Shown one piece after another: positions 14,071-43,638 of a DNA stretch of 43,638 bases; position 1 is the stretch's first letter, and each line of letters opens with the position of its first letter. The notes beneath the pieces are model-generated. The model made no database searches, was not told where the DNA came from, and was given only the letters and a program-made list of their open reading frames with translations. This DNA is from Deltaproteobacteria bacterium (GTDB lineage Bacteria; Desulfobacterota; Desulfobacteria; Desulfobacterales; Desulfobacteraceae). The stretch spans positions 1-43,638 of the forward strand of contig JAADHV010000009.1 in assembly GCA_013151635.1 (NCBI GenBank), written 5' to 3'. A program made the position numbers and the translations under genes.

Positions 14071-14099
14071 ATATAGTCTCCTGACAGGTTTGAGTATTC

Positions 14100-15982: not shown

Positions 15983-16724
15983 ATAGTTTGGATTTTAAAA
16001 TGTCATGATTTTTTATGCTTGCCGCAACGGATTTTCCAACTATTATCAGTGCATGTCTTGTGATAGAATTTTCCTTGCAGGTTTTGACAAGCTTTTTTAT
16101 CTTTGTATAAAATATTTTTTCATCAGGGTGGCTGACCTTATAAGCCACAGCACACAAAGCTTCTTTGCCATAGTGGTTTTCCAGTATTTCCTGAACTTTT
16201 CTGGCATGTCCAATGCTGAGATAAATAGCCATGGATGACCTGTGGGATGCAAGTTTTTCCAGATCTTCGGATTCGGGAACAGTTGTTCTCCCTGATATCC
16301 TGGTTAAAATCAGGGTCTGACTCACTTCGGGAAGCGTATATTCCATATTCATTTTTGAAGATGCGGCAAACGCGGCTGTAACACCAGGGATAACCCTGTA
16401 TGGTATATCTATTTTTTCAAGTCCCCGCATTTGCTCAAAAATAGCACCATAAAGAGAGGGGTCACCTGTATGAAGGCGAATAATTTTTTTGCCCCTGTCA
16501 TGATAGGTTTTTATTGTATTGATTATCTGCCCTAAGTCCATACCGGCGCTGGATTTTGTTTCAGTGTCTTTGCCCTTCCATGCCAGCACGGCTTCCGGCA
16601 CTAAAGAGCCTGCATAAATTATAAGGTCTGCTTTTTTGAGCGCATTCATGGCTTTAACAGTAATAAGCTCGGGATCGCCGGGCCCGGCACCTGCAAAAAT
16701 AACCTTGTTTGTATTTTTATTCAT
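15942..16724 (-). CDS. cobM: Precorrin-4/cobalt-precorrin-4 C11-methyltransferase (CobM/CbiF)
   Basis: A SAM-dependent corrin methyltransferase, 260 residues. Signature elements are VIFAGAGPGDPELITVKAM at the N-terminus, LIIYAGSLVPEAVL, RLHTGDPSLYGAIFEQM, and VIPGVTAAFAASSKMNMEYT, followed by LTRISGRTTVPE. The ATG overlaps the cobL stop codon by four bases, with an AGGAA-type site inside the cobL 3' end. Its 3' end overlaps the start of cbiG, whose product acts on the next intermediate. In an anaerobic pathway the product is cobalt-precorrin-5A. Confidence 0.96.
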   Translation of the reverse strand: MNKNTNKVIFAGAGPGDPELITVKAMNALKKADLIIYAGSLVPEAVLAWKGKDTETKSSAGMDLGQIINTIKTYHDRGKKIIRLHTGDPSLYGAIFEQMRGLEKIDIPYRVIPGVTAAFAASSKMNMEYTLPEVSQTLILTRISGRTTVPESEDLEKLASHRSSMAIYLSIGHARKVQEILENHYGKEALCAVAYKVSHPDEKIFYTKIKKLVKTCKENSITRHALIIVGKSVAASIKNHDILKSKLYDSKFSHGYRNAE

Positions 16725-17965: not shown

Positions 17966-17966
17966 A

Positions 17967-19019
17967 TTATCCCACCATATAGTAAAGGGTTCCCAAAAAT
18001 ATGATACTCAATATCCTGAATAACTGGCCTGACAATAACAATTGCAGTCCCATTTTAGGAGAGAAAATTCCCATATATCTTGGCAGCTGGTGGCGAAGCG
18101 CCCTTATGGGAAATGCAAGTATATTCCCAAGCAGCAAAGCTATTACGGTTTCTTTCATACTTAGGACACCTGCATTCATTAATGCTCCTGCAGCTGCAAA
18201 CCCGGATGTAAACTCGGCGGCAAAGCTTAAAATAACAACAGAAAAAGATTGAACAGGTATGATCGTAAGCGTGATAAAGTGGGACATGGATTTGTTCAGG
18301 TAATCAAAAAACCCGTTTAGATTTAATATGAAAACAAAGGTATATATCGGCAGAACCCAGATAATAATGTTTGTTATACGTGACGGCAGCTTTAATTTTA
18401 TTTTGCTCAATATGGCTGAAATGTCTTTTTTTTCATCTTTCCCGGTCGGATCAGCTTGAATTTGTATTTGATCATTATTGTGTTTTTTTAAGTATAATCG
18501 TCCGAAAACAAGAAAGCAACTTGTCCTCAGAACTGTAGCCAGAAAGGTAATAATAAGATATAAGAGTCCTGCTTTTCCTGTCAGGGGCAGGATGATAAAC
18601 AAAGTTGTCGGCAAGTGCAGGAAAAAGGCCGGGAACTGGTTCACAAAATTTGATAAAAATAATTGCATTCTGCTGATCTTGCCGTCTTCGTAAAAATCCA
18701 GGAGCATGGCATTGGCACTTGCCCCTGAGATAAAAGCTGTCGTAAAGGCAGCGCTGCACTTGTTCCCAAGATTTGAAAACCTGAAAAACGGTCTGGCAAG
18801 AACTGCAACCTGCCTTGTCCAGCCAAGGCTTTCAATCAATTGCCCTGCGAAAAGCCCGATGGAAATAAACACGATAAGCCGAAACAATGGTATGCCAAGC
18901 TTTTTTATGCATAGGGCAAGGCTGATTTTTTCAAAATATATCAGGCTGAAAATCAAACAGATAAGGGTGAAAAGTACTGAAAACCCGAGGTTTCTATAAT
19001 TTATTTTATTTTGTTTCAT
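17967..19019 (-). CDS. Nucleoside-recognition (Gate domain) membrane protein in the cobalamin operon
   Basis: A 350-residue integral membrane protein with about eight hydrophobic segments, starting with LGFSVLFTLICLIFSLIYF. Two related halves carry Gate-type features: FISGASANAMLLDFYEDGKI in the first and AAEFTSGFAAAGALMNAGVL in the second, each preceded by hydrophobic helices. Gate (nucleoside recognition, SpmA/FeoB-like) proteins include transporters, but the substrate of this branch is not established. It is locked into the cobalamin operon, overlapping cobI upstream by four bases and lying one base from cobL. This placement suggests transport of cobalt, a corrinoid intermediate or the lower-ligand base; that is inference from position only. 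Confidence 0.75.
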   Translation of the reverse strand: MKQNKINYRNLGFSVLFTLICLIFSLIYFEKISLALCIKKLGIPLFRLIVFISIGLFAGQLIESLGWTRQVAVLARPFFRFSNLGNKCSAAFTTAFISGASANAMLLDFYEDGKISRMQLFLSNFVNQFPAFFLHLPTTLFIILPLTGKAGLLYLIITFLATVLRTSCFLVFGRLYLKKHNNDQIQIQADPTGKDEKKDISAILSKIKLKLPSRITNIIIWVLPIYTFVFILNLNGFFDYLNKSMSHFITLTIIPVQSFSVVILSFAAEFTSGFAAAGALMNAGVLSMKETVIALLLGNILAFPIRALRHQLPRYMGIFSPKMGLQLLLSGQLFRILSIIFLGTLYYMVG

Positions 19020-19720
19020 TTGGATGCCAGTATCAATGTCCAGTAATCAGGTGCCCTTTTTTCAAGTTTATTAAAATCTTTAATAATCTCTTCATTTTCC
19101 CTGCCGCATTTTGAAACAGCAACGCATCTATTGTTTAACCCTGTCTCTTTTAAGGCTTTGTTAATGTCCTTTATGTTTTTATAGGCTTTTACAACAGCAA
19201 CATTTTCAACACCATCTATGTTTCTTATCCTTTGGCCTCCATAAGCTCCTGAAGTTATGAGCAGAGATTCTTCACCCTCCACAAGAATCCTGTTCAACCT
19301 TGCTGATGCAGCATGAAAAGATGTTATTCCAGGGATTGTCTCAATATCAGCTTCCGGCATCACACAGTCCATTTTTTTTAAAATATAGCCAAAAGTGGAA
19401 TAAGTTGTGGGATCGCCAAGAGTCAAAAATACTGCATTTTTCCCTTGTTTTAGAAATACTGCTATTTTTTTTGCATTCCTTGTCCATGCAGCTTCAGTTT
19501 CTCTGGCATCTTTGGTCATGGGAAAGGACAGCTTTTCTATTGTGGCAGTAGAGGATATATAAGGAGATGCAATTTCAACAGCAAGGCTATATGTGTTTTT
19601 TGTCGATGCCGCAGTAAAAATAATATCTGCTCCCTTAATAATCCTGACGGCCTTTATTGTTATCAATTCAGGGTCTCCTGGTCCAACACCTACCCCGAAT
19701 AGTTTTCCTGTTTTTTCCAT
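19016..19720 (-). CDS. cobI: Precorrin-2/cobalt-factor II C20-methyltransferase (CobI/CbiL)
   Basis: A SAM-dependent methyltransferase acting on the first cobalt-containing intermediate after the chelatase, 234 residues. Motifs include KLFGVGVGPGDPELITIKAV (SAM loop), LTLGDPTTYSTFGYIL, and IPGITSFHAASARLNRILVE with LLITSGAYG. The ATG shares one base with the btuF stop (TAATG). It is the first biosynthetic gene of the operon, directly after the corrinoid uptake genes. In the anaerobic route its substrate would be the product of CbiK, which is encoded divergently about 3.7 kb away under a second cobalamin riboswitch. Confidence 0.95.
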   Translation of the reverse strand: MEKTGKLFGVGVGPGDPELITIKAVRIIKGADIIFTAASTKNTYSLAVEIASPYISSTATIEKLSFPMTKDARETEAAWTRNAKKIAVFLKQGKNAVFLTLGDPTTYSTFGYILKKMDCVMPEADIETIPGITSFHAASARLNRILVEGEESLLITSGAYGGQRIRNIDGVENVAVVKAYKNIKDINKALKETGLNNRCVAVSKCGRENEEIIKDFNKLEKRAPDYWTLILASK

Positions 19721-20709
19721 TATTTTTCCTTTTCAAGTTGTTCGCTAGTAAAAATATCAGGATAAAGGAGCATTCCAATTGCTGCAATACCTTTATAAAG
19801 CCTGGGAACAGGCCGGGACACGATATCTTCATCAATCAGGTATATTTGATTGTTTTTTATGGCTTTAATCACACTGAATCCAGGCTCTTTTTTTATCTGT
19901 TCAATGCTCACAGAATTCATTACCCCTTTTTGAGCAAGGAATACATCTATTTGTGAGGCTTTTGCAAGGATTTGCTCCTTTCCGTAGATGGCAATATTGG
20001 TTCTTCTTGATGCCTTTGCATCAGACGCCACATTGATTCCGCCTGCGGTTTCAAGGGCAAAGATCTGAATGGCTCCGGGGGTAAAGGTTTTCATCCTTGT
20101 ATGGATGGCTTCAAAATAAACCTTTTTTTTCGGATGAATCCCGTGGGTCAATGCTTTGATATAATGGATTTTTTCTGAAAATACCCGGACCAGTTTCTCA
20201 GCCTCTTGCTTTTTTCCGGTCAAAATACCAAGTTTAATCCAGTAATCATACATCTCGTTGATATTGGACGGTTGAAGGGAAATCACTGTAATACCGGATT
20301 TTTCAAGACGGTTGATCAATTTGGGATAGCCATGATCAATCATCGGCCGTATCAGAACAAGATCAGGCATGGCGGCTAAAAATTTTTCAGGGTCATCATG
20401 ATAGGAAAACCTTGGTTTCTTCTCCACCTGCGCCGGAAAAGTATCATTAATGCTGACACCAATTATATGGTTTTCAAGGCCAAGATAATAAAGATTTTCC
20501 GTATGGGCCCCATAAAGAGAAACAATCCGGGTAAAAGGTTTGGAAAAATTGATCTGCCGGCCGCTTTTGTCTGTCAGTGTCCATGCAAAGCAATCTGAAA
20601 AGATCATAAAGGCAATAAAAAAAGCCATTCCTGTTATGCATTTAAACCGGCGGATAGTACACCTGCTTTGCTTGAACATGTTCATTATACTCAATAATAG
20701 AGTCCACAT
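19720..20709 (-). CDS. btuF: Corrinoid/metal-chelate ABC transporter substrate-binding protein (BtuF-like)
   Basis: A 329-residue periplasmic binding protein of the helical-backbone class (BtuF/FepB). The long N-terminus ends in a hydrophobic signal segment (MAFFIAFMIFSDCFA), so cleavage near residue 42 is likely. The mature part begins WTLTDKSGRQINFSKPFTRI, followed by VSLYGAHTENLYYLGLENHI and AAMPDLVLIRPMIDHGYPKL. The start at 20709 is supported by an AAAGAGGT site five bases upstream, although it overlaps the ATPase gene by 68 bases; ATGs at 20685 and 20679 would give a shorter leader but lack sites. Being between a cobalamin riboswitch and cobI argues for cobalamin or cobinamide uptake, though the fold also serves siderophores and heme. 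Confidence 0.85.
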   Translation of the reverse strand: MWTLLLSIMNMFKQSRCTIRRFKCITGMAFFIAFMIFSDCFAWTLTDKSGRQINFSKPFTRIVSLYGAHTENLYYLGLENHIIGVSINDTFPAQVEKKPRFSYHDDPEKFLAAMPDLVLIRPMIDHGYPKLINRLEKSGITVISLQPSNINEMYDYWIKLGILTGKKQEAEKLVRVFSEKIHYIKALTHGIHPKKKVYFEAIHTRMKTFTPGAIQIFALETAGGINVASDAKASRRTNIAIYGKEQILAKASQIDVFLAQKGVMNSVSIEQIKKEPGFSVIKAIKNNQIYLIDEDIVSRPVPRLYKGIAAIGMLLYPDIFTSEQLEKEK

Positions 20710-30986: not shown

Positions 30987-32759
30987 TCAAATCAGTTTGT
31001 ATTTTTGTAATTTTCTTGCAATGGTTGACTGGTTTAAGCCAAGCACCATAGCTGCTTTTGATTGTGTCAAATGTTCATTCATGATGTCCTTTAGGACCTG
31101 TTTCTCAAATGTTTCCACCATTTCACGGAACGAAAGTCCCTTATTTTTTAAATCCATGATTAAATTGTCATGTTTTGCCGAGTCTGTGATGCTTTTAGGA
31201 AGGTCTTTGTATTGTATCTTATTATTTTCATTGAGTACAACAAGCCGTTCGCATACGTTGATAAGCTCTCTGACATTACCCGGAAATGCATATGCCTCCA
31301 AGGCATCAGCAGCTTTGCTTGTAAGCGTGATGGTTTTTTTGACATCAAATTTTTTTGAGAAATAATCCAGGTGATGAGAAACCAGGGGGAGAATGCAATT
31401 TTTTCTTTCTCTCAGCGGCGGCAGGTGGATGGGGATAACCTTGAGCCTGTAATAAAGGTCCTGCCGGAATGTTTTATTGTCAACCATTGCTTTAAGATCC
31501 TGGTTGGTGGCGGCAAGGATACGGACATTTACTTTTTTACTGGTTGTTCCGCCAATTCTGCTGAGAGAACCGTCTTCAAGAAATCGTAACAGCTTTACCT
31601 GGGAAGAAAGGGGAAGTTCTGCAATTTCATCTAAAAAGAGTATCCCGTTGTCTGCCATTTCAAACCTGCCTGGTTTCCCCTTGTTTGCACCGGTAAACGC
31701 CCCTTTTTTATAGCCAAAAAGCTCGCTTTCAACCAGAGTGTCCGGGATAGCACCGCAGTTAAGCCTGATCATGGGCTTGCCACGACGTTTGGAATAATTA
31801 TGGATCATTTCTGCGATCACCCCTTTTCCCGTGCCGGATTCACCTGTGATAAGGACAGTGGAATCAACCCTTCCCACCTTTGCTGCTTTTTCAAGAATGA
31901 TTTTAAAATTAAGGCTTTTGGCAATAATTTTTTTAGATTTCAAGGCTTCCAGCTGCATTTCAAGAAGGTCTTCTTCAAGCTCGGCCTTTAATGCCTGCTT
32001 TTCCTCAATCTCTTTTTTGAGCTTTTCAATCTCTGTCATATCCCTTTCATTGACTACCACCCTGAACAACTGCCCTTGTTTGTTAAATACAGGTGTGGCT
32101 GTGAGCAAAAGATTTTTCCCGTGCCTGGTGTGCTGAATAATGGTTTCTTTTTTCTTGGATTGTAGTACTTTCAGAGTGACAGAGCGGTCGATAATACCTT
32201 TGTCAACCATTTCCTGCATGGATTTTCCAATAAATTTTTCAGCCATGATGCCGGTCAGCTGTTCCGAGGCCGGATTAATCCTGATAACCGTTCCCTGGCC
32301 ATCGCAGATCCAGAAACCATCATGACTGGAGTTGATAATGGTATCAAGCTCTATGGACATTTCCTGGTAGGATCTCATTTTCCTGCTGACTTTTTCCAGC
32401 ATGGTCACATCCTCGAAAAGATAGAGTAGGCCAAGGGTGCTTTTTTCCCAGATAATCGGGCTGATCCGCGTCATAAATTTTTTATTATGCCGGATGACCT
32501 GGATATCCCTCATGGTGATAATATTTTTTAATACAGTACTTGAATGTTCGCTCAGTTCCGGCAGGGTTGCAGGAATCAATGTGCCGGTAAAGATATCCAG
32601 GTGCCCCTGGGCTTTTTTATTCGAGATCACTGTTTTAAAATAACAGTCTGTCACCACAATGCCGTTGGGAGAGGCATTTAAAAATGCTTTACTGAATTGC
32701 TTCCAGTTTAATTGTTTTGACTTTTTATTCAGGGATATGGTTTTTTCATTAATAATCAT
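30987..32759 (-). CDS. Sigma-54-dependent activator with PAS domains
   Basis: A 590-residue bacterial enhancer-binding protein. The N-terminus (about 20-270) contains PAS-like sensor regions (FLNASPNGIVVTDCYFKTVI; INSSHDGFWICDGQGTVIRI with NPASEQLTGI) and a coiled coil. The AAA+ domain has Walker A GESGTGKG (306-313), the sigma-54 contact loop GAFTGA (353-358), Walker B ILFLDEIAELP and the arginine-finger region RQDLYYRLKVIPIHLPPLRE. The C-terminus is a TyrR/Fis-like helix-turn-helix (LTQSKAAMVLGLNQSTIARK). A GGAGGT site precedes the ATG. It is divergent from the aminotransferase/AOR genes, which carry a -24/-12 promoter and two palindromes, so it is the obvious activator. A PAS domain presumably senses the amine or an intermediate. 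Confidence 0.94.
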   Translation of the reverse strand: MIINEKTISLNKKSKQLNWKQFSKAFLNASPNGIVVTDCYFKTVISNKKAQGHLDIFTGTLIPATLPELSEHSSTVLKNIITMRDIQVIRHNKKFMTRISPIIWEKSTLGLLYLFEDVTMLEKVSRKMRSYQEMSIELDTIINSSHDGFWICDGQGTVIRINPASEQLTGIMAEKFIGKSMQEMVDKGIIDRSVTLKVLQSKKKETIIQHTRHGKNLLLTATPVFNKQGQLFRVVVNERDMTEIEKLKKEIEEKQALKAELEEDLLEMQLEALKSKKIIAKSLNFKIILEKAAKVGRVDSTVLITGESGTGKGVIAEMIHNYSKRRGKPMIRLNCGAIPDTLVESELFGYKKGAFTGANKGKPGRFEMADNGILFLDEIAELPLSSQVKLLRFLEDGSLSRIGGTTSKKVNVRILAATNQDLKAMVDNKTFRQDLYYRLKVIPIHLPPLRERKNCILPLVSHHLDYFSKKFDVKKTITLTSKAADALEAYAFPGNVRELINVCERLVVLNENNKIQYKDLPKSITDSAKHDNLIMDLKNKGLSFREMVETFEKQVLKDIMNEHLTQSKAAMVLGLNQSTIARKLQKYKLI

Positions 32760-32787
32760 TTTCAGACCTCCGGGGTCAGTAATTATT

Positions 32788-32822
32788 TATGCATGAATGC
32801 ATATTTTATGCGCCAACGCATA
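32788..32822. promoter_or_regulatory. Pair of 16-bp palindromes, candidate activator sites
   Basis: TATGCATGAATGCATA (32788-32803) and TATGCGCCAACGCATA (32807-32822) are both perfect dyads of the form TATGC-N6-GCATA with centres 19 bp apart, close to two helical turns. They lie 54 bp before the -24 element and just upstream of the divergent activator gene, the usual place for enhancer sites. The symmetry is seen; binding by the adjacent regulator is inferred. Confidence 0.65.
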
Positions 32823-32875
32823 GGTTATACGGATATTTTCCTTTGATCAAGAGTAAAAACACCATGAAATGGCAA

Positions 32876-32891
32876 TGGCACATTAGTTGCT
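32876..32891 (+). promoter_or_regulatory. Sigma-54 (-24/-12) promoter of the polyamine module
   Basis: TGGCAC (32876-32881), five bases, then TTGCT (32887-32891) matches the sigma-54 consensus TGGCAC-N5-TTGC exactly. It sits about 100 bp before the aminotransferase start and downstream of the twin palindromes. Confidence 0.85.
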
Positions 32892-32988
32892 ATATTAAAT
32901 TTTGTTGAATTGGAAAAGTATTTTTCATTTTATGCAGATCCGCTTTTTTAATAAAAATGAATCCGTCCGAACCATCAGGAGATTAAAG

Positions 32989-34296
32989 ATGTCACAATTG
33001 AGCAAACAACTTTTGGAACGAAGAAAAAAAAATATTCCTCAGGGACCTTTTAATACAACCCCGGCTTTTATCAAAGAGGCCAAAGGCGCATGCATGGTTG
33101 ATGTGGAAGGAAAAAAGTTCATCGATTTTGCCGGTGGGATTGGTGTTAATAATGTGGGGCACAGTCACCCGAAAGTTGTCCGCGCCATAAAGGATCAGGC
33201 AGATTCTTTTATTCATACCTGTTTTCATGTTGCCATGTATGAATCCTATGTGGAACTTGCAGAAAAGTTGAATGCCCTGGCACCAGGGGATTTTCAAAAA
33301 ATGACCATGTTTGCCAACTCAGGTGCCGAAGCAGTTGAAAATGCAGTAAAAATTTGTCGATATGCCACTAAAAGAAGCGGCATTATCTGTTTTGACAATG
33401 CATTTCATGGCAGGACCCAGCTTGCCATGAGCCTTACCAGCAAAATCAAACCCTATAAGCTGAATTTCGGACCTTTTGTACCGGAAATTTACAGGATGCC
33501 GTATGCCTATTGTTACAGGTGTCCTTTCAACCTGGAATACCCTTCCTGCGATGCAGCCTGTGCTGATTATCTTGAGGATTTTTTCATCACAAATGTTGCT
33601 CCTGAAAATACAGCGGCGGTGATCGCCGAGCCCATACAGGGAGAGGGTGGATTTATTACGCCTCCGCCTGAATATTTTCCAAAGCTTCAAAAAATATGCG
33701 CTAAATATGAAATTCCCCTGATTATTGATGAGGTCCAGGCAGGCGCGGGCAGGACCGGCAAATTTTTTGCCATAGAACATTGGGGGATTGAACCGGATAT
33801 TATTACTATTGCAAAAAGTTTTGCAGGCGGGATGCCGTTAAGTGCGGTAACAGGAAAAGCCATGCTTATGGAAGCGCCCCATATCGGGGGCCTGGGAGGA
33901 ACTTACAGCGGTAATCCCCTTTCCTGCAAAGCAGCCCTTGCCGTTCTTGAAATCCTGTTTGAAGACGGCCTGCTTAAAACAGCCCAAAGCCTGGGTGAGA
34001 CCTTGCTGGAAAAATTTATTTCTTTTCAAAAAGAACATGAGATAATAGGCGATGTCAGGGGGAAAGGCCCCATGCTGGGCCTGGAACTGGTCCGGGACAG
34101 GCATACCAAAGAACCTGCTGTAAAAGAAGCTAAAAAACTGGTTGAGCTTTGTTATGAAAAGGGTCTGATCATACTGTCCTGCGGGAATTATGGTAATGTG
34201 ATCAGAACGCTTATGCCCCTTGTCATTACAAAAGAGGAACTGGATAAAGGGCTTTCAATACTTGAAGAAAGTTTTCATGAACTGGAAAGGCAATAA
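32989..34296 (+). CDS. Class III aminotransferase, probable 4-aminobutyrate aminotransferase
   Basis: A 435-residue PLP-dependent omega-aminotransferase. Family landmarks are FIDFAGGIGVNNVGHSHPKV, MTMFANSGAEAVENAVKICR, FHGRTQLAMSLT, IAEPIQGEGGFITPPPEYFP, IIDEVQAGAGRTGKFFA and the Schiff-base Lys276 in TIAKSFAGGMPLSAV. The insert YAYCYRCPFNLEYPSCDAAC is typical of one GABA aminotransferase branch. The ATG at 32989 follows a CAGGAG site with good spacing; the open frame extends upstream to 32902, across the promoter-leader region, and that extension is rejected. It lies 12 bp before an AOR gene. Predicted reaction: GABA plus 2-oxoglutarate or pyruvate to succinic semialdehyde plus glutamate or alanine. 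5-Aminovalerate and beta-alanine are alternatives. Confidence 0.9.
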   Translation: MSQLSKQLLERRKKNIPQGPFNTTPAFIKEAKGACMVDVEGKKFIDFAGGIGVNNVGHSHPKVVRAIKDQADSFIHTCFHVAMYESYVELAEKLNALAPGDFQKMTMFANSGAEAVENAVKICRYATKRSGIICFDNAFHGRTQLAMSLTSKIKPYKLNFGPFVPEIYRMPYAYCYRCPFNLEYPSCDAACADYLEDFFITNVAPENTAAVIAEPIQGEGGFITPPPEYFPKLQKICAKYEIPLIIDEVQAGAGRTGKFFAIEHWGIEPDIITIAKSFAGGMPLSAVTGKAMLMEAPHIGGLGGTYSGNPLSCKAALAVLEILFEDGLLKTAQSLGETLLEKFISFQKEHEIIGDVRGKGPMLGLELVRDRHTKEPAVKEAKKLVELCYEKGLIILSCGNYGNVIRTLMPLVITKEELDKGLSILEESFHELERQ

Positions 34297-34308: not shown

Positions 34309-36063
34309 ATGAACGGTTATTTTTTAAAATTATTGAAGATTGATGCGACAAAAAAAAATTTCCATGTCGAGGATATTGATAAGGATGTGATGGAGACAAG
34401 CATTGGAGGCAAAGGTCTTGCCACCCGGTTGCTTCTGGACTGCAATCCTGCCGGAGTCGACGCTCTGGGGCCTGATAATCATTTGATCATCACAGCAGGC
34501 CCTTTTTGTGGAAGTTCCCTGTACGGATCATCCCGGTATGGTGTTTTTTCCAAATCACCTTTAACCGGGTTTTACGGGGAATCCTATTCCGGAGGAAGTT
34601 TTGCAGGGCCCCTGGGCAATACCGGATTTGATGCCGTCCTTATCAAGGGAGCGGCAGAAAACCCGGTCTGGATTGAAATCAGCCCGGATAATGTTATTTT
34701 TCATGATGCTAAAAGAATCTGGGGCAGGGATACCTTTGAGGCAGAAGACTATCTTAAAAAAGAATCCCCGGGGAAAAGCCCCGGGATTATGGTGATCGGT
34801 CCTGCCGGTGAAAACCTGGTCCGGTTTGCCGTTATTAAAAATGACCGGTATCGTGTGGCGGGCAGAACCGGGATGGGTGCAGTTCTTGGATCAAAAAAAA
34901 TAAAAGGTATTGTATGCCATGGAGATAAAAAAAGAATTTTTCATGATCCTGACGGCATAAAAAAATACAAAAAGAAAATGCTGGCCCGCCTGAAAGACGA
35001 CAAGGTTGTCCATGCCTATAGAACCATGGGAACGCCCATGATGGTGGATATTTTAAATAATGCCGGTGCGTTTCCCACAGAGTACTGGAAGCGCGGAAGG
35101 TTTGAAAAAAAGGACAGTATAAATGCCGCGGCAATGGCGAAAAGGCTTAAGCCTGTACCCCATGCATGCAGGGATTGTTTCCTTGGATGCGGTAAATACA
35201 CTGAGGTGCAGCAGGGCAGGCACAAGGGGCTCAAGCTGGAAGGTCCGGAATATGAGACCATTTATGCATTTGGCGGGCTGTGCATGATTGATGAAATAGA
35301 GGAAATTGCCTATTTGAACCGGCTTTGTGACAGTTTAGGCGTTGATACAATCTCTTCGGGAAACCTGGCAGCCTTTGCCATTGAAGCCTCAAAAAGCGGC
35401 AGAATTAATGAAAAACTGGAATATGGATCAGCCGATGATGTGGCGAATCTGATTCGAAAAATAGTCAAAAGGCAGGGAGTTGGCGGAATCCTGGCAGAAG
35501 GGATCAAACCGGCTGCTGAAGAACTTGACATGCAGGATATCATCGTTCATGTCAAGGGTATGGAACCTGCCGGTTATGATCCGAGGATTTTAAAGGGGAT
35601 GGGACTTGCCTATGCGGTCAGCGAAAGAGGTGCATGTCATTTAAGGACAACTTTTTACAAGGCTGAACTGGCCGGGATGGTGGCCCCTGAAGCAATTGAC
35701 AATAAGGTTGAACTATTCACCGATTTTGAAGACCGGTGTACCCTTTTTGATTGTTTTATTCTCTGCCGGTTTTTCAGGGACCTGTATCCATGGGAAGAAC
35801 TGTCCAGATTATTGTTTCTTACCACGGGCCTTTCCTATGATCAAACAAGACTGTCATCGCTTGCAGCCGGGATCAAGGACAATACCCGGCACTTCAACCT
35901 GAGGGAAGGGCTGACATCGGCAGATGACACCCTGCCTGCCAGATTGTTTGATCAAAAACTTGAAGGTGATAAGGGAATCACGCAAAACGAGCTTCGAAGG
36001 CTTGTATCTGAGTACTACAAAATAAGGGGCTGGGATGCCGGCGGTATTCCACCAGCTAAGTAA
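34309..36063 (+). CDS. Aldehyde:ferredoxin oxidoreductase (tungsten AOR family)
   Basis: A 584-residue enzyme that oxidises an aldehyde to a carboxylic acid with two ferredoxins. The N-terminal cofactor-binding domain has METSIGGKGLATRLLL and TAGPFCGSSLYGSSRYGVFS with KSPLTGFYGESYSGG. Cys287, Cys290 and Cys294 (ACRDCFLGC) plus Cys486 in FILCRFF form the [4Fe-4S] site, followed by LEGPEYETIYAFGGLC. The late motif MGLAYAVSERGACHLRTTFY is typical of AOR domains near the pterin. It follows the GABA-type aminotransferase by 12 bp, so succinic semialdehyde is the predicted substrate. A 70-bp spacer with a large dyad separates it from a second, fused AOR gene. Confidence 0.93.
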   Translation: MNGYFLKLLKIDATKKNFHVEDIDKDVMETSIGGKGLATRLLLDCNPAGVDALGPDNHLIITAGPFCGSSLYGSSRYGVFSKSPLTGFYGESYSGGSFAGPLGNTGFDAVLIKGAAENPVWIEISPDNVIFHDAKRIWGRDTFEAEDYLKKESPGKSPGIMVIGPAGENLVRFAVIKNDRYRVAGRTGMGAVLGSKKIKGIVCHGDKKRIFHDPDGIKKYKKKMLARLKDDKVVHAYRTMGTPMMVDILNNAGAFPTEYWKRGRFEKKDSINAAAMAKRLKPVPHACRDCFLGCGKYTEVQQGRHKGLKLEGPEYETIYAFGGLCMIDEIEEIAYLNRLCDSLGVDTISSGNLAAFAIEASKSGRINEKLEYGSADDVANLIRKIVKRQGVGGILAEGIKPAAEELDMQDIIVHVKGMEPAGYDPRILKGMGLAYAVSERGACHLRTTFYKAELAGMVAPEAIDNKVELFTDFEDRCTLFDCFILCRFFRDLYPWEELSRLLFLTTGLSYDQTRLSSLAAGIKDNTRHFNLREGLTSADDTLPARLFDQKLEGDKGITQNELRRLVSEYYKIRGWDAGGIPPAK

Positions 36064-36133: not shown

Positions 36134-39100
36134 ATGATCGACTTAGAAGAATATCATCCGGATGATTATAAACTCAGGGATATAAAAGCTGCTAAAAAGG
36201 AAGTGGATGAAATAGTTGATATTATCCTTAAGCCAACAGAGGAGATATCCCTTGAAACAAGAGAAGAAATTTCCAAAAAAACAGTCAGGAATTTCCGGGA
36301 TCATATTAATAAAGGTTTCCTTGATTATAGAAAATCAGTAACAGAAGCAACAGGATTTGCCGTAACAGAATGGACAGGCAAAGGTTCCATCCTGGTGGAT
36401 GCACTGGACAGGCAGTTTTTGGATCTTCTGGGAGGATTTGGTCTTTATTCCTATGGTATCCGCCATCCGAAGATTGTAGCTGCAGTGAAGGCCCAATTGG
36501 ACAGATCCCCGCAATACAGCCAGGAAATGCTGGACCCTTTAAGGGCGCAGCTGGCTAAAATACTGGCCTTATTAACTCCCGGAAAAATCCAGTACGGTTT
36601 TTTTTCAAATTCAGGAACAGAAGCTGTGGAAGGGGCTATGAAACTTGCTAAACTCCATACAGGGCGCAAAGGGTTTATATCCATGCTTAAAGGCTTTCAC
36701 GGAAAAACCCTGGGGTCCCTTTCCCTTATGGGTAAAAAAATGTTCAGGCAGCCTTTGCTGCCTCTTCTTGACGGAATCAGGCAGGCCCCGTTCGGGGACC
36801 TTGTGGCTCTTGAGCATGAGCTTTCATCGGCCAGGGCAGTAGGGGATGATATTGCAGCCGTTGTGGTCGAGCCTGTTCAGGGGGAAGCCGGGGCCATTGT
36901 TCCGCCAGATGAATTTTTACCCGGAGTCAGGGAACTTTGTGATCATTACGGTGTACTTTTAATTGTTGACGAGGTGCAGACCGGTTTTGGACGGACCGGC
37001 AGGATATTCGGGGTGGATCACTGGGACGTCAAACCCGATATCATGTGTTTTGGAAAAGCCCTGGGCGGCGGAGTTGTTCCCATGTCCGCTTTTATGGCAA
37101 CTCCTGAAATATGGAAATGCATGGAACCCAATCCTTTTATACATACTACCACAACAGGCGGCAACCCCCTTGCCTGTGCTTCTGCCCTGGCCGCCATATC
37201 CGTTCTTTTAGAAGAAGATCTTGCAGGCCAGGCAAAGAAAAAAGGGGAATATGTCCTTGATAAATTAGGGGAGCTAAAGGAGAGGTATCCTGGTGTCCTG
37301 GCCCATAAAAGAGGGCTTGGTCTTCTTTTAGGAATGGAGTTCCACACCGATGGCATCGGGTATAAGGTTGCATCAGGGCTGTTTTCAAGGGGGGTTATCA
37401 CAGCAGGAACCCTGACCAATGCCAAGAACATCCGGTTTGAACCGGCATTGAACGTACCCTGGGGAATTCTTGATGAGTCCTTAAACCGCATAGAAGATGT
37501 TTTTAAATCCATTGAACTGCCCAAGGGCAGAAAAAGCGAACATCTTTATACCGGCCAGGTACTTCATGTGGATCTGACTCAAAAGAAAGTTCAGTCAAAA
37601 ACCATTCCACAGGATCTTCGCAAACAATATATCGGGGGCTGGGGCCTTGGTGTAAAATATCTCTATGACCTGATTGATCCCAAAGTTGATCCTTTGTCAC
37701 AGGACAACGCCTTTGTCATCATGACAGGTCCTGTGTGCGGCACCCTTGTTCCCACATCCTCACGAACCAGCCTTGTTTCAAAGTCTCCCAAAACCGGGAC
37801 TATATTTGAATCCAATATCGGCGGTGCCTTCGGGCCTGAACTCAAGTTTGCCGGTTATGACGGTATTGTTGTCACCGGTAAATCAGACACACCTGTTTAT
37901 CTGAGAATAGAAAATAATAAGGTTAGTTTGGAAGATGCTTCCCCTATCATGGGCAAAGGTATATTCGAAACAGAAAAATGGCTGAAAAATCAGATTAATT
38001 TTGAGGCTAAAACCCTTTCCATCGGGCCTGCGGGTGAAAATCTTATTGATTTTGCCTGTGTGGGTTCCGAGTCTTACCGGCAGATGGGACGTGGCGGTGG
38101 CGGTGCCCTTTTTGGTTCAAAAAATTTAAAAGCCATTGCGGTCAGGGGAACAGGCGGAGTCCAGGTCAACGGGATCGGCGCATTTTATGAAAAAGTAAGC
38201 GAGCATACACAAGGCAACCTTCTCACCGATGATAATCTCTGGGCTTATCATCATGGCACATCCCTGCTGGTGGATGTTACCAATGAGATGGGAATTCATC
38301 CCACACGAAATTTTTCAAAGGGTGTAAGCAAAGGCCGCAAAAATTTGAACAGCGATGCCATTGATGATGTTAAAATCGGTGACCGGTCCTGTGCTTCCTG
38401 CCCCATGGGATGCGGCAAGTTTACTTTGGTTAACGGCACACAGCTTGAAGGCCCTGAATATGAAACCCTGTGCCTGGGCGGCTCAAATTGTGAAGTGGAT
38501 GACCTTGAGGCTGTCATGAAATTTAACCGGCTTTGTGATGATTATGGTCTTGATACCATGTCCACGGGGAATATTATCGGTCTTGCCATGGATATCACGG
38601 AATCCGGACTTTATGACTATGGCATCCGGTTTGGAGATAAAGAACAATATCTTTCCCTGGTTGAGGAGATTGCCACCCGGTCCACCCAAAGGGGGAAAGA
38701 CCTGGCACTTGGAGCTCAAAAACTTGGTGAAAAACATGGGGCTCAGGACAAGGCAGCCCATGTGAAAAATCTTGAGATGCCGGCCTATGATCCCCGTGGT
38801 AATTATGGCATGGCACTGGGATATGCAACTTCCGAGCGCGGTGCCTGTCATTTAAGGTCCTTTACCCTGTTTGAAGAAGAGCCCTTTAAGGTCAGGGAAA
38901 TGGCCCGGGCTGTCATGGAGAACCAGAATAATAATGCCGTAAAATGGTCCATGGGGCTCTGCGATTTCTGGGGAACAGTGGATACATCCATTATGGCGGA
39001 TTTTCTAACAAAGGGACTTGGCAGAAAAATATCTGCCAGGGACCTGGAGAAATCCGGGGAAAGAATATGGAATCTTACACGGCTCTTCAACCTGAAGGCC

Positions 39101-39289
39101 GGGTTTACCGCCGACCAGGACACCCTTTCTGAAAAACTGATGAACAAAGCCCTGGAAAACGGTCCCTGGGAAGGCAGAAAATTTGACCAAAAGGTGTTGG
39201 GCCAAATGAAAACGCTTTTGTATCATTTAAGGGGATGGGATCAGGAAGGACAACCCTGCAGGGAAAAGCTGGCAGAACTGGATCTTTAA
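36134..39289 (+). CDS. Fusion protein: putrescine aminotransferase (PatA-like) + aldehyde:ferredoxin oxidoreductase
   Basis: A 1051-residue single frame joining two complete enzymes. Residues 1 to about 458 form a class III aminotransferase resembling E. coli PatA throughout: HINKGFLDYRKSVTEATGF, LDLLGGFGLYSYGIRHPKIV, EMLDPLRAQLAKILALLTPG, FFSNSGTEAVEGAMKLAK, IVDEVQTGFGRTGRIFGVDH, Schiff-base Lys308 in FGKALGGG and HTTTTGGNPLACASALAA. After a short linker (about 458-470) residues 471-1051 form a full AOR: YTGQVLHVDLTQKKV, then QYIGGWGLGVKYLYDL, TGPVCGTLVPTSSRTSLVSK, iron-sulfur cysteines C753, C756, C760 (CASCPMGC) and C943 (GLCDFWG). Predicted: putrescine to 4-aminobutanal, oxidised in the same polypeptide to GABA. 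An AAGGAG site 11 bases upstream supports the start. Cadaverine is an alternative substrate. Confidence 0.93.
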   Translation: MIDLEEYHPDDYKLRDIKAAKKEVDEIVDIILKPTEEISLETREEISKKTVRNFRDHINKGFLDYRKSVTEATGFAVTEWTGKGSILVDALDRQFLDLLGGFGLYSYGIRHPKIVAAVKAQLDRSPQYSQEMLDPLRAQLAKILALLTPGKIQYGFFSNSGTEAVEGAMKLAKLHTGRKGFISMLKGFHGKTLGSLSLMGKKMFRQPLLPLLDGIRQAPFGDLVALEHELSSARAVGDDIAAVVVEPVQGEAGAIVPPDEFLPGVRELCDHYGVLLIVDEVQTGFGRTGRIFGVDHWDVKPDIMCFGKALGGGVVPMSAFMATPEIWKCMEPNPFIHTTTTGGNPLACASALAAISVLLEEDLAGQAKKKGEYVLDKLGELKERYPGVLAHKRGLGLLLGMEFHTDGIGYKVASGLFSRGVITAGTLTNAKNIRFEPALNVPWGILDESLNRIEDVFKSIELPKGRKSEHLYTGQVLHVDLTQKKVQSKTIPQDLRKQYIGGWGLGVKYLYDLIDPKVDPLSQDNAFVIMTGPVCGTLVPTSSRTSLVSKSPKTGTIFESNIGGAFGPELKFAGYDGIVVTGKSDTPVYLRIENNKVSLEDASPIMGKGIFETEKWLKNQINFEAKTLSIGPAGENLIDFACVGSESYRQMGRGGGGALFGSKNLKAIAVRGTGGVQVNGIGAFYEKVSEHTQGNLLTDDNLWAYHHGTSLLVDVTNEMGIHPTRNFSKGVSKGRKNLNSDAIDDVKIGDRSCASCPMGCGKFTLVNGTQLEGPEYETLCLGGSNCEVDDLEAVMKFNRLCDDYGLDTMSTGNIIGLAMDITESGLYDYGIRFGDKEQYLSLVEEIATRSTQRGKDLALGAQKLGEKHGAQDKAAHVKNLEMPAYDPRGNYGMALGYATSERGACHLRSFTLFEEEPFKVREMARAVMENQNNNAVKWSMGLCDFWGTVDTSIMADFLTKGLGRKISARDLEKSGERIWNLTRLFNLKAGFTADQDTLSEKLMNKALENGPWEGRKFDQKVLGQMKTLLYHLRGWDQEGQPCREKLAELDL

Positions 39290-39347: not shown

Positions 39348-39893
39348 ATGGAAAAATTACTTTTGGTCATCCCTAACAGGTGTACGGGATGCAATAGATG
39401 CACTTATGTCTGCTCAGCGGTAAAAGAGGGGATGTTCATTCCTTTCAGGGCCAGGATAAAAATCAATAATTTCCCCCATGAAGGGTATTCCGTGCCAAGC
39501 ATCTGTTTTCAGTGCCCCAGTGCAGACTGCATGAAAGCCTGTCCCGAAGGTGCCATTATTAAAAATGAAAGGGGTGTCATTGCCATTGACATCAATAAAT
39601 GCACAGGGTGCGGCAAGTGTGTAACTGCCTGTACCTACGGGATGATGGAGCAGTATGAATCCGGTATGCCCTATAAGTGTGATCTTTGCGGCGGAAGCCC
39701 GGCATGTGTGGCTGAGTGTAATTTTAGTGCCCTGGTATTTAAGGAGCCGGATTCCATCACCCGCAAACAAAGGGCCCAACAGATGAAACAAAGAAGCACT
39801 AAAGGTTCTCCTTCCTTTAAACGTCATGAACTTGCAGTAAATATTCTTGACCAGGCGGTCAGGGTACCGCGTACGCCGGGATATCTGGGTTAA
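39348..39893 (+). CDS. Four-cluster ferredoxin, probable AOR electron acceptor
   Basis: A 181-residue iron-sulfur protein of the HycB/DmsB/AOR-small-subunit type. Sixteen cysteines in four groups (CTGCNRCTYVC; CFQCPSADCMKAC; CTGCGKCVTAC; CDLCGGSPACVAEC) can bind four [4Fe-4S] clusters. There is no signal peptide or membrane segment, so it is cytoplasmic. An AAGGAGA site precedes the ATG. Encoded 58 bp after the fused aminotransferase-AOR, it is the natural electron acceptor or small subunit for one or both AORs, as AorB is for AorA in Aromatoleum. No flavin NADH subunit follows, so electrons probably leave as reduced ferredoxin; that is inferred. Confidence 0.9.
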   Translation: MEKLLLVIPNRCTGCNRCTYVCSAVKEGMFIPFRARIKINNFPHEGYSVPSICFQCPSADCMKACPEGAIIKNERGVIAIDINKCTGCGKCVTACTYGMMEQYESGMPYKCDLCGGSPACVAECNFSALVFKEPDSITRKQRAQQMKQRSTKGSPSFKRHELAVNILDQAVRVPRTPGYLG

Positions 39894-39943: not shown

Positions 39944-40981
39944 ATGATAACAGATAATAAGGGGTTATCCCTTCAGGGTATCAATAAAACCTATGGCAAG
40001 GTAAACGCAGTCAAAGATGTTACCCTTGATATAAATTCAGGAGAATTTTTTACTCTGCTGGGTCCTTCCGGGTGTGGCAAAACAACATTGCTGCGCATGA
40101 TCGCCGGCCTGGAACTCCAGGATTCGGGCAGTGTCATTCTGGAAGGTCAGGATATCACAAGACTGCCTGCCATTAAACGGCAGATTAATACGGTTTTTCA
40201 AAGCTATGCTCTTTTTCCTCATCTTAATATTTTTGAAAATATTGCTTTTGGTCTCCGTTCCAGGAAAGTTCCGGAAAAAGAAGTACAAACCAGGGTTCAA
40301 GAAGCCCTGGACATGCTTGAACTCGGGACAATGCCAAACCGCTATCCCCATCAGCTTTCCGGAGGTCAGAACCAGCGGGTGGCCCTGGCAAGGGCCCTGG
40401 TCAACGAGCCAAAAGTACTTTTGCTGGATGAGCCCATGTCAGCCCTGGATGCCAAATTAAGGGCCCAGGTTCAGGTGGAACTCAGGCGCTTGCAGCAAAA
40501 ACTTGGTCATACCTTTATACTGGTTACCCATGACCAGGATGAAGCCCTTGTTGTATCTGACCGCATTGCAGTAATGAAGGACGGGCAGATTATCCAGTTC
40601 GGTACCCCGGAAGAGGTCTATGATTTGCCTAAGAATAGATTTATTGCCCAGTTTTTAGGAGCGGCAAATCTTCTTGCCGGCAGGTTCCATGACGGGATGT
40701 TTCATACGGATATCGGCCCTCTTGAACTGGAAGGGCCTCCCCCATGGGAGCGCGGCGTGATCGCCATCAGACCTGAGTGGATAAAACTTTCAGATACAAA
40801 GCCTGAAAAAAACGGGATCAAAGCAAAAGTCAGTGAAATCATTTACCGGGGTACAAACCTTGATATCTGGTTTGAACCGGGCGCAATACGGGTCAGGAGC
40901 AGCACCTACAAGAATTTTAAAATCGGAGATGAACTCTGGCTTGATCTGGCTGCTGAAGAACTGGTGGTGCTCAATGAATAG
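39944..40981 (+). CDS. potA: Polyamine ABC transporter ATP-binding protein (PotA)
   Basis: A 345-residue importer ATPase. It shows Walker [10 protein letters not shown] (40-48), Q-loop [20 protein letters not shown], signature [16 protein letters not shown], Walker [13 protein letters not shown] and the His switch in [11 protein letters not shown]. The C-terminal part (about 240-345, [25 protein letters not shown]) is a TOBE-type regulatory domain found in PotA and related spermidine/putrescine ATPases. A GGAAGAG site precedes the ATG. It overlaps potB by eight bases and opens a potABCD set directly after the amine-degrading enzymes, which strengthens the polyamine assignment. Confidence 0.93.
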
Positions 40982-41879
40982 ACTGATAATCTGGTATGGT
41001 GAACTGCTAACCCAGAAAAAGCTGATTAAGAGAGGAGCGCTGTTCCTGACACCCGGCATGCTGTGGCTGATGATTTTTCTGGTGCTTCCCGGTTTGATAT
41101 TGATCCTTGTCAGCTTTGCCGGCAGGGGTGCCTATGGTGAACTGGTATGGGATTTTGGCCTGGCCAATTATAAACGGCTTGCGGGATATGGCATATTCGG
41201 GTGGACGGCGGATTATATCGTTATTCTTCTTCGCTCAGTATGGGTTGCCTTTGTCACCACAGGCCTGGCCGTTGTTCTTTCTTATCCCCTGTGTTTTTTT
41301 ATTGCAAGAAAACCTGAAAGAAGCCGGTATATGTGGCTGATGATGGTAATTATCCCTTTCTGGACAAATATGGTCATCAGGACCTATTCATGGTTCCTGA
41401 TTCTGGCTCCGGAACTGCCTTTTGCAAAACTGGCAGCCTGCTTTAAGATTATTTCTCCGGGAATGGGTCTTTACCCCAGTGCCTTTGCCGTTTACCTGGG
41501 TATGATTTCCATGTTCCTGCCCTTTGTAGCCCTTCCTCTTTTTTCAAGTGTAGAACGTATGGACTGGACCCTGGTTGAAGCAGCCCAGGACCTTTATTCA
41601 TCCAATATACGAATTTTCATGCATGCTATTTTACCCCAGACCCTTCCCGGGCTTTCTGTCGGCGTTATTCTGACATTTGTTCCTGCCATGGGGATGTTTG
41701 TTGTCCCGGACCTTTTAGGAGGGGCTAAATACATGCTTGTGGGAAACTTGATTCAACAGCAGTTCGGAGCCAGCCGTGACTGGGCATTTGGCGCAGCAAT
41801 CAGCATGGGATTGATGGTCTTGACCATGTTCAGCCTCTATTTGTACAGAAGAAAAAACAAGGGCATGGATTTATTATGA
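40974..41879 (+). CDS. potB: Polyamine ABC transporter permease (PotB)
   Basis: A 301-residue membrane subunit with about six helices. Segments start at [40 protein letters not shown] and [11 protein letters not shown] are typical of PotB. The cytoplasmic coupling loop reads [20 protein letters not shown] then PQTLPG (the EAA motif). The open frame extends back to 40833 inside potA, but the ATG at 40974, eight bases before the potA stop, is the sensible start. Its stop overlaps the potC start by four bases (ATGA). Confidence 0.92.
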
Positions 41880-42676
41880 AAAAGATTAATCTACTGGTGA
41901 ATACCATGGCCTTCGGGACCATGGGGTTTTTGTACCTCCCGTTGATGGCCGTGGCATTTTTTTCCGTGAATAATACTAAATACGGCCTTTCCTGGAAAGG
42001 GTTTACACTTGACTGGTATATAAAGCTGTTTCACAACGAGGTAATTCTTCAGGCAGCATGGAATACACTGGTCCTTGCTGTTGTATCAACCCTTATTTCA
42101 ACAGCTTTAGGCACAGCGCTTGCCATTGGCATGGACCGGTTTCCCTGGCCAAAAAAAATGAACACCGCCCTGGATCTTATTCTGCATCTTCCCGTGATCA
42201 TACCGGACATCATCCTTGCTGCTGCCCTGGTGGTCGCGTTTGGGTTTCTGCGCCAGGTATCATCATTGTTTGAACCGGGTCTGTTCAGCATGATCATAGG
42301 TCATATAACGTTTCAGGTGGCATTTGTAGCCTTGGTGGTCCGCAGCCGCCTGATCAGCATTGGCAAAGATATTGAGGAAGCTGCAAGGGATCTTTATGCA
42401 AGTACTTCATACCTATTATGGAAAATTACTCTGCCGTTATTGATGCCGGGCATTATTGCCGGTGCCATGCTTGCGTTTACCTTATCTCTTGATGACTTTG
42501 TCATCAGTTTTTTTACAGCCGGGCCAGAGTCGGTAACCCTGCCATTATTTATTTTTGCAGCAGTCAGAAGAGTTGTGACCCCCCAGATCCATGCACTGTC
42601 GACCCTGGTTTTATTTGTTACGATAATTCTTGTGTTTGTCATGGAACGGTTTACAAGAAAATTAAATACAAAATAA
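41876..42676 (+). CDS. potC: Polyamine ABC transporter permease (PotC)
   Basis: A 266-residue membrane subunit that pairs with PotB. It has about six helices beginning AFGTMGFLYLPLMAVAFFSV, the PotC-like WKGFTLDWYIKLFHN, helices around LDLILHLPVIIPDIILAAAL, and the EAA loop IEEAARDLYASTSYLLWKIT with PLLMPGI. The ending LDDFVISFFTAGPESVTLPL, then FIFAAVRR, is characteristic of PotC/PotI. It overlaps potB by four bases and is followed after 51 bp by potD. Confidence 0.93.
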   Translation: MKKINLLVNTMAFGTMGFLYLPLMAVAFFSVNNTKYGLSWKGFTLDWYIKLFHNEVILQAAWNTLVLAVVSTLISTALGTALAIGMDRFPWPKKMNTALDLILHLPVIIPDIILAAALVVAFGFLRQVSSLFEPGLFSMIIGHITFQVAFVALVVRSRLISIGKDIEEAARDLYASTSYLLWKITLPLLMPGIIAGAMLAFTLSLDDFVISFFTAGPESVTLPLFIFAAVRRVVTPQIHALSTLVLFVTIILVFVMERFTRKLNTK

Positions 42677-42727: not shown

Positions 42728-43638
42728 ATGAAAAAGTTAATGTTAATGGTCATTGCAATCTTTATATTGTTGTCAGGAAGCGCCTGGTGCAACAGTGGAG
42801 AATTGAAGATATTCACATGGTCCGAATACATGGATGAAGTCAATTTTCCAAAAGCCTTTGAAAAAGCTACCGGTATCAAGGTGAGTCTTGATTTGTATGA
42901 ATCAAACGAAGAAATGATGGCAAAACTGCAGTCCGGCGGTTTGGGACAATATGATATTATTATTCCGTCGGATTATATCATGCCAAGCCTTATTCATTTA
43001 CATCTTTTAACTCCCCTTGATCATTCAAAAATACCCAATTTGAAAAATTTGAGTAAAAAGTTTACAAGTCCCTCCTTTGATCCGGGAAATAAATATTCGG
43101 CAGGATGGCAGTGGGGAACAGTGGGACTGATGTATAACAAGAAAAAATTAAGCAGGGCAGATGTCCAGTCCTGGTCTATTATATTTGATCCTAAAAAAAA
43201 TCCCGGAACATTTTACCTGATTGATTCTGTCAGGGAAATGCTTGGCATCACCTTGCTGTACCTGGGATATGATTTTAATACAACCAACCCTGAAGAACTT
43301 AAAAAAGCGGCCGATCTTCTTGTCAGCACAAAAAAAAGAGAGGCCTGCCTGGGGTTTAAAGGCGGTGTCGGCGGCAAGAATGATGTCATATCAGGAACAG
43401 CGGCGGCAGCCCTGGTTTATAATGGAGATGCTGTTCAGACTATTGCACAGTATCCTGAAACATACGGTTTTATCGTACCAAAGGAAGGCAGTGCCATATG
43501 GATTGATTCCATGTGTATTCCTGCCAAGGCACCCAACCTTGATTCTGCATACAAATGGATTAACTGGGTCCTTGACCCCAAGGTAGGCGCGGCTCTTTCA
43601 AATTACAATCATTTTGCAACGCCCAATCAGGCAGCCAT
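42728..43638 (+). CDS. potD: Polyamine-binding periplasmic protein (PotD/PotF family), 3' end cut by window
   Basis: The reading frame is open to the window edge (303 codons visible). An AAGGAGG site precedes the ATG. A signal peptide (MKKLMLMVIAIFILLSGSA) directs export. The mature protein matches PotD: LKIFTWSEYMDEVNFPKAFE, ATGIKVSLDLYESNEEMMAK, QYDIIIPSDYIM, and IWIDSMCIPAKAP, whose Asp aligns with the acidic residue that holds the polyamine amino group. The segment LIDSVREMLGITLLYLGYDF aligns with the region holding two further acidic ligands of E. coli PotD; the Glu is kept but a Ser stands where one Asp is expected, so polyamine preference may differ. It completes potABCD. Confidence 0.92.
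   Translation, partial: MKKLMLMVIAIFILLSGSAWCNSGELKIFTWSEYMDEVNFPKAFEKATGIKVSLDLYESNEEMMAKLQSGGLGQYDIIIPSDYIMPSLIHLHLLTPLDHSKIPNLKNLSKKFTSPSFDPGNKYSAGWQWGTVGLMYNKKKLSRADVQSWSIIFDPKKNPGTFYLIDSVREMLGITLLYLGYDFNTTNPEELKKAADLLVSTKKREACLGFKGGVGGKNDVISGTAAAALVYNGDAVQTIAQYPETYGFIVPKEGSAIWIDSMCIPAKAPNLDSAYKWINWVLDPKVGAALSNYNHFATPNQAA

Follow-up and report, generated by a model that had tools for sequence, protein, structure and literature searches.

A candidate bifunctional enzyme joining a PatA-type aminotransferase to a tungsten aldehyde:ferredoxin oxidoreductase in a deltaproteobacterium and its relatives

The stretch of DNA analyzed here (43,638 nucleotides of contig JAADHV010000009.1, our contig C29; in the following called the window) belongs to a 4.2 Mb, 95% complete genome assembly (G000) of a member of the Desulfobacteraceae with sulfate-reducing relatives. 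It encodes a single polypeptide in which a PatA-like class III aminotransferase is followed by a tungsten-type aldehyde:ferredoxin oxidoreductase (AOR). Judged by domain content, active-site residues and gene context, this fusion protein is likely a bifunctional, probably ferredoxin-linked enzyme, which would convert putrescine to 4-aminobutyrate (GABA) in anaerobic polyamine breakdown. Both halves belong to known families, and the PatA-AOR combination was not found described.

The original prediction of one polypeptide joining both enzymes was exact in coordinates, strand and length (Table 1), and Pfam searches confirmed it. Aminotran_3 matched residues 81-456 (305.7 bits), AFOR_N residues 474-673 (255.6 bits) and AFOR_C residues 703-1051 (361.7 bits), with the AOR half passing both of its cut-offs (29.8 bits for AFOR_N and 27 bits for AFOR_C). 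The catalytic residues named there, the pyridoxal phosphate (PLP) lysine Lys308 and the [4Fe-4S] cysteines Cys753, Cys756, Cys760 and Cys943, stand at exactly those positions. Also, the junction DNA between the two halves was read and is open without a stop, as had been claimed; the same holds for 21 other genomes and the separately named contig L025, thereby ruling out an assembly or sequencing artefact. Fused copies sit on chromosome-sized contigs as well (G042 C1, 5.6 Mb; G507 C1, 5.6 Mb; G604 C1, 7.0 Mb). In an alignment of 22 fused proteins, the linker has a constant length save for a one-residue insertion in L087. An AlphaFold2 model of the fusion reached a mean pLDDT of 55.1 and a pTM of 0.49 from a shallow alignment (13 rows), and its geometry is unusable.

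The PatA-like nature of the N-terminal half was borne out by the NCBIfam model PRK11522 (putrescine aminotransferase), which scored 622.7 over residues 22-461 at a cut-off of 612. E. coli PatA (YgjG; 4uox/4uoy), a separate protein unlike the present one with its attached AOR, aligned over residues 40-441 (461.7 bits); the gaps are one and three residues long. The structure paper on this enzyme (PMC4244111) names its PLP and putrescine contacts, the latter including Gln119, Phe91 and Leu419, and notes that Lys183 is not a conserved residue of class III enzymes. Reading the alignment by eye, all 14 active-site and entrance residues checked are identical in the fusion protein: E. coli Phe91, Gln119, Thr151, Phe180, Lys183, Glu243 and Asp271 correspond to residues 102, 130, 162, 188, 191, 251 and 279, and Gln274, Lys300, Phe327, Thr332, Tyr402, Leu419 and Arg426 to residues 282, 308, 335, 340, 410, 427 and 434. 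In the 22 fused proteins, these positions are invariant except for Phe102 (Tyr in five) and Thr340 (Pro in one).

For the C-terminal half, the solved AORs 9mqx (452 bits), 1aor (397 bits) and 8c0z (346.5 bits) were matched. The second-shell residues Thr243, Glu313, Tyr427 and His448 of Pyrococcus furiosus AOR (PMC12096430), together with Tyr312, are found as Thr709, Glu777, Tyr885, His906 and Tyr776. These five residues and the four cysteines are invariant in all 21 fused proteins and all 8 unfused members of the same clade examined (29/29). P. furiosus Tyr452 is replaced by Phe910, a position with Phe in 19 and Tyr in 2 of 21 fused proteins, and the pterin-binding Asp338 of the DxxGL motif is kept as Asp802.

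A search across genomes for the same domain architecture, as suggested in the original prediction, recovered the fused frame in 22 genomes plus L025. It was found in 7 genomes including the own one among 97 close relatives, and in 3 including the own one among 395 genomes drawn from the phylum. Of the 389 genomes of the order, 20 including the own one carry both halves joined by an open junction; the contig end truncates the start in G011 and G551, and the frame begins late in G498. A 21st genome of the order (G583) is considered below, and G447, the 22nd, lies outside the order. As the genome sets overlap, the union amounts to 22 genomes from 11 genera and 9 families, in addition to L025. Close relatives of the fusion are located on contigs labelled Desulfobacula, Desulfotignum (two), Desulfobacterales and uncultured or unplaced proteobacteria (two). 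In a family control comprising 58 genomes, only 3 of about 150 AFOR_N matches listed lie in frames of more than 900 codons, all of them this fusion, and the next longest frame among the matches listed has 809 codons. The number of AFOR_N matches at E up to 1e-30 ranged from 0 to 24 across these genomes, with 15 in the own genome.

In trees of both halves, the fused rows form one group, with a support of 100/100 for the PatA half (22 fused of 45 rows) and 99/98 for the AOR half (21 fused of 47 rows). Identical sequences were collapsed, the truncated L095 was left out of the AOR tree and L025 out of both; the AOR tree rows a_L099_9223 and x_L076 are the same gene. Since each half forms a single clade, one fusion event follows, and several independent fusions are ruled out for the rows examined by one change on each tree. 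Both halves are under purifying selection: in comparisons with four relatives, the ratio of nonsynonymous to synonymous substitution (dN/dS) is 0.025-0.043 in the PatA half and 0.068-0.083 in the AOR half, at a dS of 1.1-2.3, which is near saturation.

The most telling context is provided by unfused counterparts. In G256, a row of genes encodes PatA (72% identity), an agmatinase-like protein, an AOR from the clade of the fusion (60%), AorA (54%), another agmatinase-like protein and GabT. A triple fusion suggested there by an open frame of 1535 was rejected: PatA, the agmatinase-like protein and AOR are encoded by separate genes in overlapping frames. In G758 and at the first G055 locus, both from another genus of the family of the source organism, PatA (71-72%) adjoins an aminobutyraldehyde dehydrogenase, accompanied by AguB and PotABCD. 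The G758 dehydrogenase scored 661.6 with PRK13473 (cut-off 615) and is 93% identical to that of G055; at both loci, an NAD-type enzyme occupies the place that the AOR has in the fusion. The PatA proteins of G758, the first G055 locus and three more form the sister group of the fused PatA clade (95/90). At the second G055 locus (L043), a dehydrogenase homologue is separated from PatA by one antiporter gene. A third type of AOR, with about 28-32% identity to both others and apparently recruited to the same step, is encoded next to a PatA-type gene in G037, G539, G499 and G741; the PatA-type protein of G741 shows only 51% identity. The stretch from G612 encodes PatA and AguB, and none of the above aldehyde enzymes was detected there. 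In the own genome (95% complete assembly), five Aldedh matches were detected, three of them short or weak. Neither of the two full-length matches reaches the cut-offs for aminobutyraldehyde dehydrogenase and PuuC; one is similar to succinate-semialdehyde dehydrogenase (SSADH; 596.4, cut-off 646.35), the other is of the methylmalonate-semialdehyde type (527.7, cut-off 448.5).

Table 1. Location of the fusion gene, its parts and further features. Coordinates refer to the window unless a locus is named.
Feature	Location	Strand	Remarks
PatA-AOR fusion	36134..39289	+	single open frame, ATG start, 1051 codons/aa, no internal stop
PatA half	36134..37519	+	residues ~1-462, PLP Lys308; Aminotran_3 and PRK11522 matches
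Linker	37520..37543	+	~residues 463-470, 8 residues; borders set by judgement
AOR half	37544..39286	+	~residues 471-1051; Cys753/756/760/943
Sigma-54 (AAA+/PAS/Fis) activator, PrdR-like	30987..32759	-	Sigma54_activat 229.3 bits; PrdR 421.4, below cut-off 795
-24/-12 (sigma-54) promoter match TGGCACATTAGTTGCT	32876..32891	+	zero mismatches
GabT-type 4-aminobutyrate aminotransferase	32989..34296	+	435 aa; TIGR00700 542.9, above cut-off 506.65
Stand-alone AOR, putative succinate-semialdehyde oxidoreductase	34309..36063	+	584 aa; AFOR_N and AFOR_C
AorA/WorS-like polyferredoxin subunit	39348..39893	+	181 aa with 16 Cys, arranged as four groups of four
PotA-like polyamine ABC transporter ATPase	39944..40981	+	NCBIfam PotA 393.3, below cut-off 482
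PotB-like permease	40974..41879	+	301 aa from ATG 40974 (as in some relatives; frame listed from GTG 40833); 212.7, below cut-off 348
PotC-like permease	41876..42676	+	PotC 203.8, below cut-off 326
PotD/PotF-like substrate-binding protein	42728..43638	+	cut by contig end; PotD 163.8, below cut-off 582
Third AOR type beside unfused PatA-type gene	L044 8246-10018		
Third AOR type beside unfused PatA-type gene	L096 7933-9681		
Third AOR type beside unfused PatA-type gene	L097 7522-9249		
Third AOR type beside unfused PatA-type gene	L099 9223-10971		
Aminotransferase and AOR neighbour genes, Halostagnicola	L103 3896-7081		
Aminotransferase and AOR neighbour genes, Natronomonas	L104 3881-7179		

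In the window, the genes from GabT onward follow each other closely, the first four gaps measuring 12, 70, 58 and 50 bases. The ATG start of GabT is preceded by AGGAG and several relatives have a length of 435 aa, so that the TTG at 32902, where the open reading frame list starts this gene, probably lies upstream of the real start. The small subunit encoded after the fusion had its best matches in the Protein Data Bank with 9mqx_E (109.3 bits) and 8c0z_C, the AorA of Aromatoleum aromaticum (95.5 bits). The four PotABCD-like genes are all under the strict NCBIfam cut-offs. A gene for an NAD-linked FAD subunit is absent between 39893 and the contig end, and no genome-wide search for one was made. 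The divergently transcribed sigma-54 activator is the probable regulator of the operon. The promoter match, 97 bases before the GabT ATG, is the only zero-mismatch -24/-12 match on both strands of the window; allowing up to two mismatches, 35 matches were counted at 26.35 expected. Upstream of it (32780-32840), repeated TGCAT/ATGCGC-like words are visible by eye as possible activator sites.

Neighbouring genes were counted at the 23 fused loci, for which stretches of 3.8 to 43.6 kb were available; because of these lengths, absences at the loci of relatives count little. AorA follows the fusion at 22 loci, while GabT was found at 9, a second AOR at 5, PotA, PotB and PotC at 11 each, PotD at 8, AguA (agmatine deiminase) at 9, AguB at 8 and an agmatinase-like gene at 3. 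NCBIfam checks gave 588.2 for the AguA of L090 and 335 for that of L100 (cut-off 381.8), 464 for the AguB of L100 (cut-off 410.25) and 164 for the agmatinase-like protein of L039 (cut-off 174.3); the own genome encodes AguA elsewhere (577, cut-off 381.8). In G001 and G005, two genomes without a fusion above the threshold, the stand-alone AOR likewise adjoins GabT. A sigma-54 activator is near 2 of the 23 loci (G000 and G042), with a TetR_C_37-type regulator in 9 instead, and also near the GabT/AOR or PatA loci of G005, G037, G499 and G741. Exact -24/-12 matches were found in 6 of 106 loci: in L002 (the site of the window itself), in L041 (G042) and L054 (G005), where the operon and this same activator flank it, and in L027, L028 and L099 at places not tied to this operon.

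In the proposed pathway, putrescine would be imported via PotABCD or made from agmatine. Going by homology and conserved residues, the PLP half would transaminate it to 4-aminobutanal, which the AOR half would oxidize, probably as the hydrate, to GABA at a tungsten-bis-pterin site. The [4Fe-4S] cluster of the AOR half would then hand electrons to the AorA-like subunit, a separate gene product with four clusters, from which they would reach ferredoxin, as family and neighbouring gene lead one to expect. GabT would convert GABA to succinate semialdehyde and the second AOR would oxidize this to succinate; with both aldehyde steps done by AORs, both would therefore feed ferredoxin rather than NAD(P). 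The operon would be switched on by the sigma-54 activator. AOR-family enzymes deliver electrons of very low potential, and 4-aminobutanal cyclizes spontaneously to 1-pyrroline, which the fusion plausibly prevents, along with escape of the aldehyde. The product of E. coli PatA passes to the NAD-dependent dehydrogenase PatD. The earlier idea of the AOR half as a catcher of 4-aminobutanal is supported by gene context, because GabT, the Pot transporter, AguA or agmatinase-like neighbours and, elsewhere, a dehydrogenase beside unfused PatA point to it; physical capture or a tunnel is hypothetical.

Several findings weigh against this reading. The cut-off of the tighter PatA equivalog TIGR03372 was not reached by the PatA half (480.4 vs 658.65), and therefore we call it PatA-type without claiming membership of that strict equivalog. 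The G758 dehydrogenase misses the strict model TIGR03374 (518.1, cut-off 909.3). The own genome has an SSADH-like gene, so that oxidation of succinate semialdehyde may not depend on the second AOR. In G447, an aminobutyraldehyde dehydrogenase homologue (64%) lies in the same region as the fusion (1 of 23 loci), so that the AOR half would not everywhere be the sole route for the aldehyde. The distribution is patchy (21 of 389 genomes of the order), and in G583 (L095 8012-10546) the junction is present with an AOR half that ends at residue 778; neither a continuation of this half nor AorA was found in the 19 kb fetched. Another such point is the second DxxGL pterin aspartate (P. furiosus Asp489), which is Trp938 in the fusion protein. 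This position holds Trp or Phe, preceded by Lys, in all 29 rows of the AOR clade of the fusion (including L038, L015, L020, L021, L023 and L034-L036), whereas 18 other AOR rows, two of which are the same gene, hold Asp in 16 cases, Asn in one and no letter in one. The equivalent Asp504 of A. aromaticum AOR is a pterin ligand (PMC10413684). Loss of this residue would fit a fusion in which one half, e.g., the AOR half, is catalytically dead or regulatory. We regard this as very improbable in view of the low dN/dS of the AOR half, the invariant cysteines and second-shell residues and the retained AorA. Moreover, formaldehyde:ferredoxin oxidoreductase (FOR) likewise departs in its cofactor-binding motifs (PMC10413684), for which reason Trp938 is no bar to membership of the wider AOR family.

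It is a more demanding proposal that a PLP-tungsten enzyme channels 4-aminobutanal within an NAD-independent, ferredoxin-linked pathway from putrescine to succinate, in which AORs with an AorA-type wire carry out both aldehyde oxidations. We put this forward tentatively, at somewhat less than an even chance. The chances appear evenly balanced for the same two activities operating without channelling, where the fusion would provide equal amounts and co-localization, and 4-aminobutanal or 1-pyrroline would diffuse between the sites. PatA and the same-clade AOR are near neighbours in G256 with one gene between them, a short linker gives no indication about a tunnel, and the A. aromaticum AOR is reached via two large channels (PMC10413684), all of which agrees with free diffusion; the near-constant linker length kept over 9 families does not, as co-expression in an operon would not require fusion. 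Cadaverine, spermidine or another diamine might be the true substrate, with the same chemistry and a different aldehyde. Cadaverine is also used by E. coli PatA (PMC4244111), and the exchanges at Phe102 and Thr340 among the 22 fused proteins would be compatible with this, yet it seems unlikely to us because AguA or agmatinase-like genes, which lead to putrescine, are near 12 of the 23 fused loci, and GabT near 9. Only a slight chance is given to the reverse direction, reduction of GABA with ferredoxin to 4-aminobutanal and subsequent amination to putrescine: AORs are reported to reduce acids (PMC10413684, PMC10816221), but the neighbours would import putrescine, make it from agmatine or degrade GABA, and a dehydrogenase stands beside PatA in another genus.

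Among known systems, the fusion would belong to the Class II tungsten oxidoreductases (WorL and WorS; PMC13328260) because of the adjacent small subunit with four [4Fe-4S] motifs. It shares with them the AFOR_N/AFOR_C large subunit with the second-shell Thr, Glu, Tyr and His, and differs by the PatA domain on the large subunit. The main text of that article contains none of the words 'aminotransferase', 'putrescine', 'polyamine' and 'fusion', and the sole 'fused' in it concerns ModBC. A. aromaticum AorABC (8c0z) resembles the AOR half and AorA at the scores given above; it lacks an aminotransferase domain, has the FAD subunit AorC and carries Asp504 where Trp938 is found here. The nearest printed design we met is PtTamH (PMC9594044), a class III transaminase likewise fused to an enzyme handling its aldehyde; it works in the biosynthetic direction of secondary metabolism with an NADH-dependent (thioester) reductase as partner. 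On plasmids of Halostagnicola larsenii and Natronomonas pharaonis, a class III aminotransferase gene is followed by an AOR gene (~32-33% identity), here as two separate genes. Among the matches listed, these 2 of 2020 matching plasmid records, both haloarchaeal and unfused, cover at least 80% of the fusion in one place. Beside the Natronomonas pair, branched-chain amino-acid transport genes are located. A PatA-AOR fusion was not found described in the open-licence literature, preprints aside, going by titles and the beginnings of abstracts; papers with the colon spelling 'aldehyde:ferredoxin' may escape such a search.

A classification covering more than 4,000 tungsten oxidoreductases states that in only five of their 92 clades has the physiological role of a member been defined (PMC13328260, 2026). 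As the fusion itself names the likely aldehyde, the substrate of its AOR is directly testable. If the proposed function is true, one AOR clade would gain a defined physiological substrate, an anaerobic polyamine pathway would conserve low-potential electrons in ferredoxin, not in NAD(P)H, and the fusion would exemplify how nature handles a spontaneously cyclizing intermediate. The three AOR types (fused, beside GabT and beside unfused PatA) suggest that AORs replaced aldehyde dehydrogenases in amine breakdown more than once.

Some further observations concern single loci. In G042, the stand-alone AOR beside the fusion (L041 10128-11663) has 511 aa, lacks an internal stretch holding three cluster cysteines and may be inactive. 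GabT was not detected within the 18 kb of this locus. In G023, a cassette of PotABCD and agmatine deiminase occurs twice (L057 79-5080 and 13397-18000), once on each side of the GabT-fusion-AorA genes; both copies are equally identical to the window, as a result of either duplication or an assembly effect. In the window itself, the region 12098-20709 on the minus strand encodes a CobB/CobQ-type amidotransferase, tetrapyrrole methylases and a Peripla_BP_2 binding protein and looks like a cluster for cobalamin synthesis and uptake.

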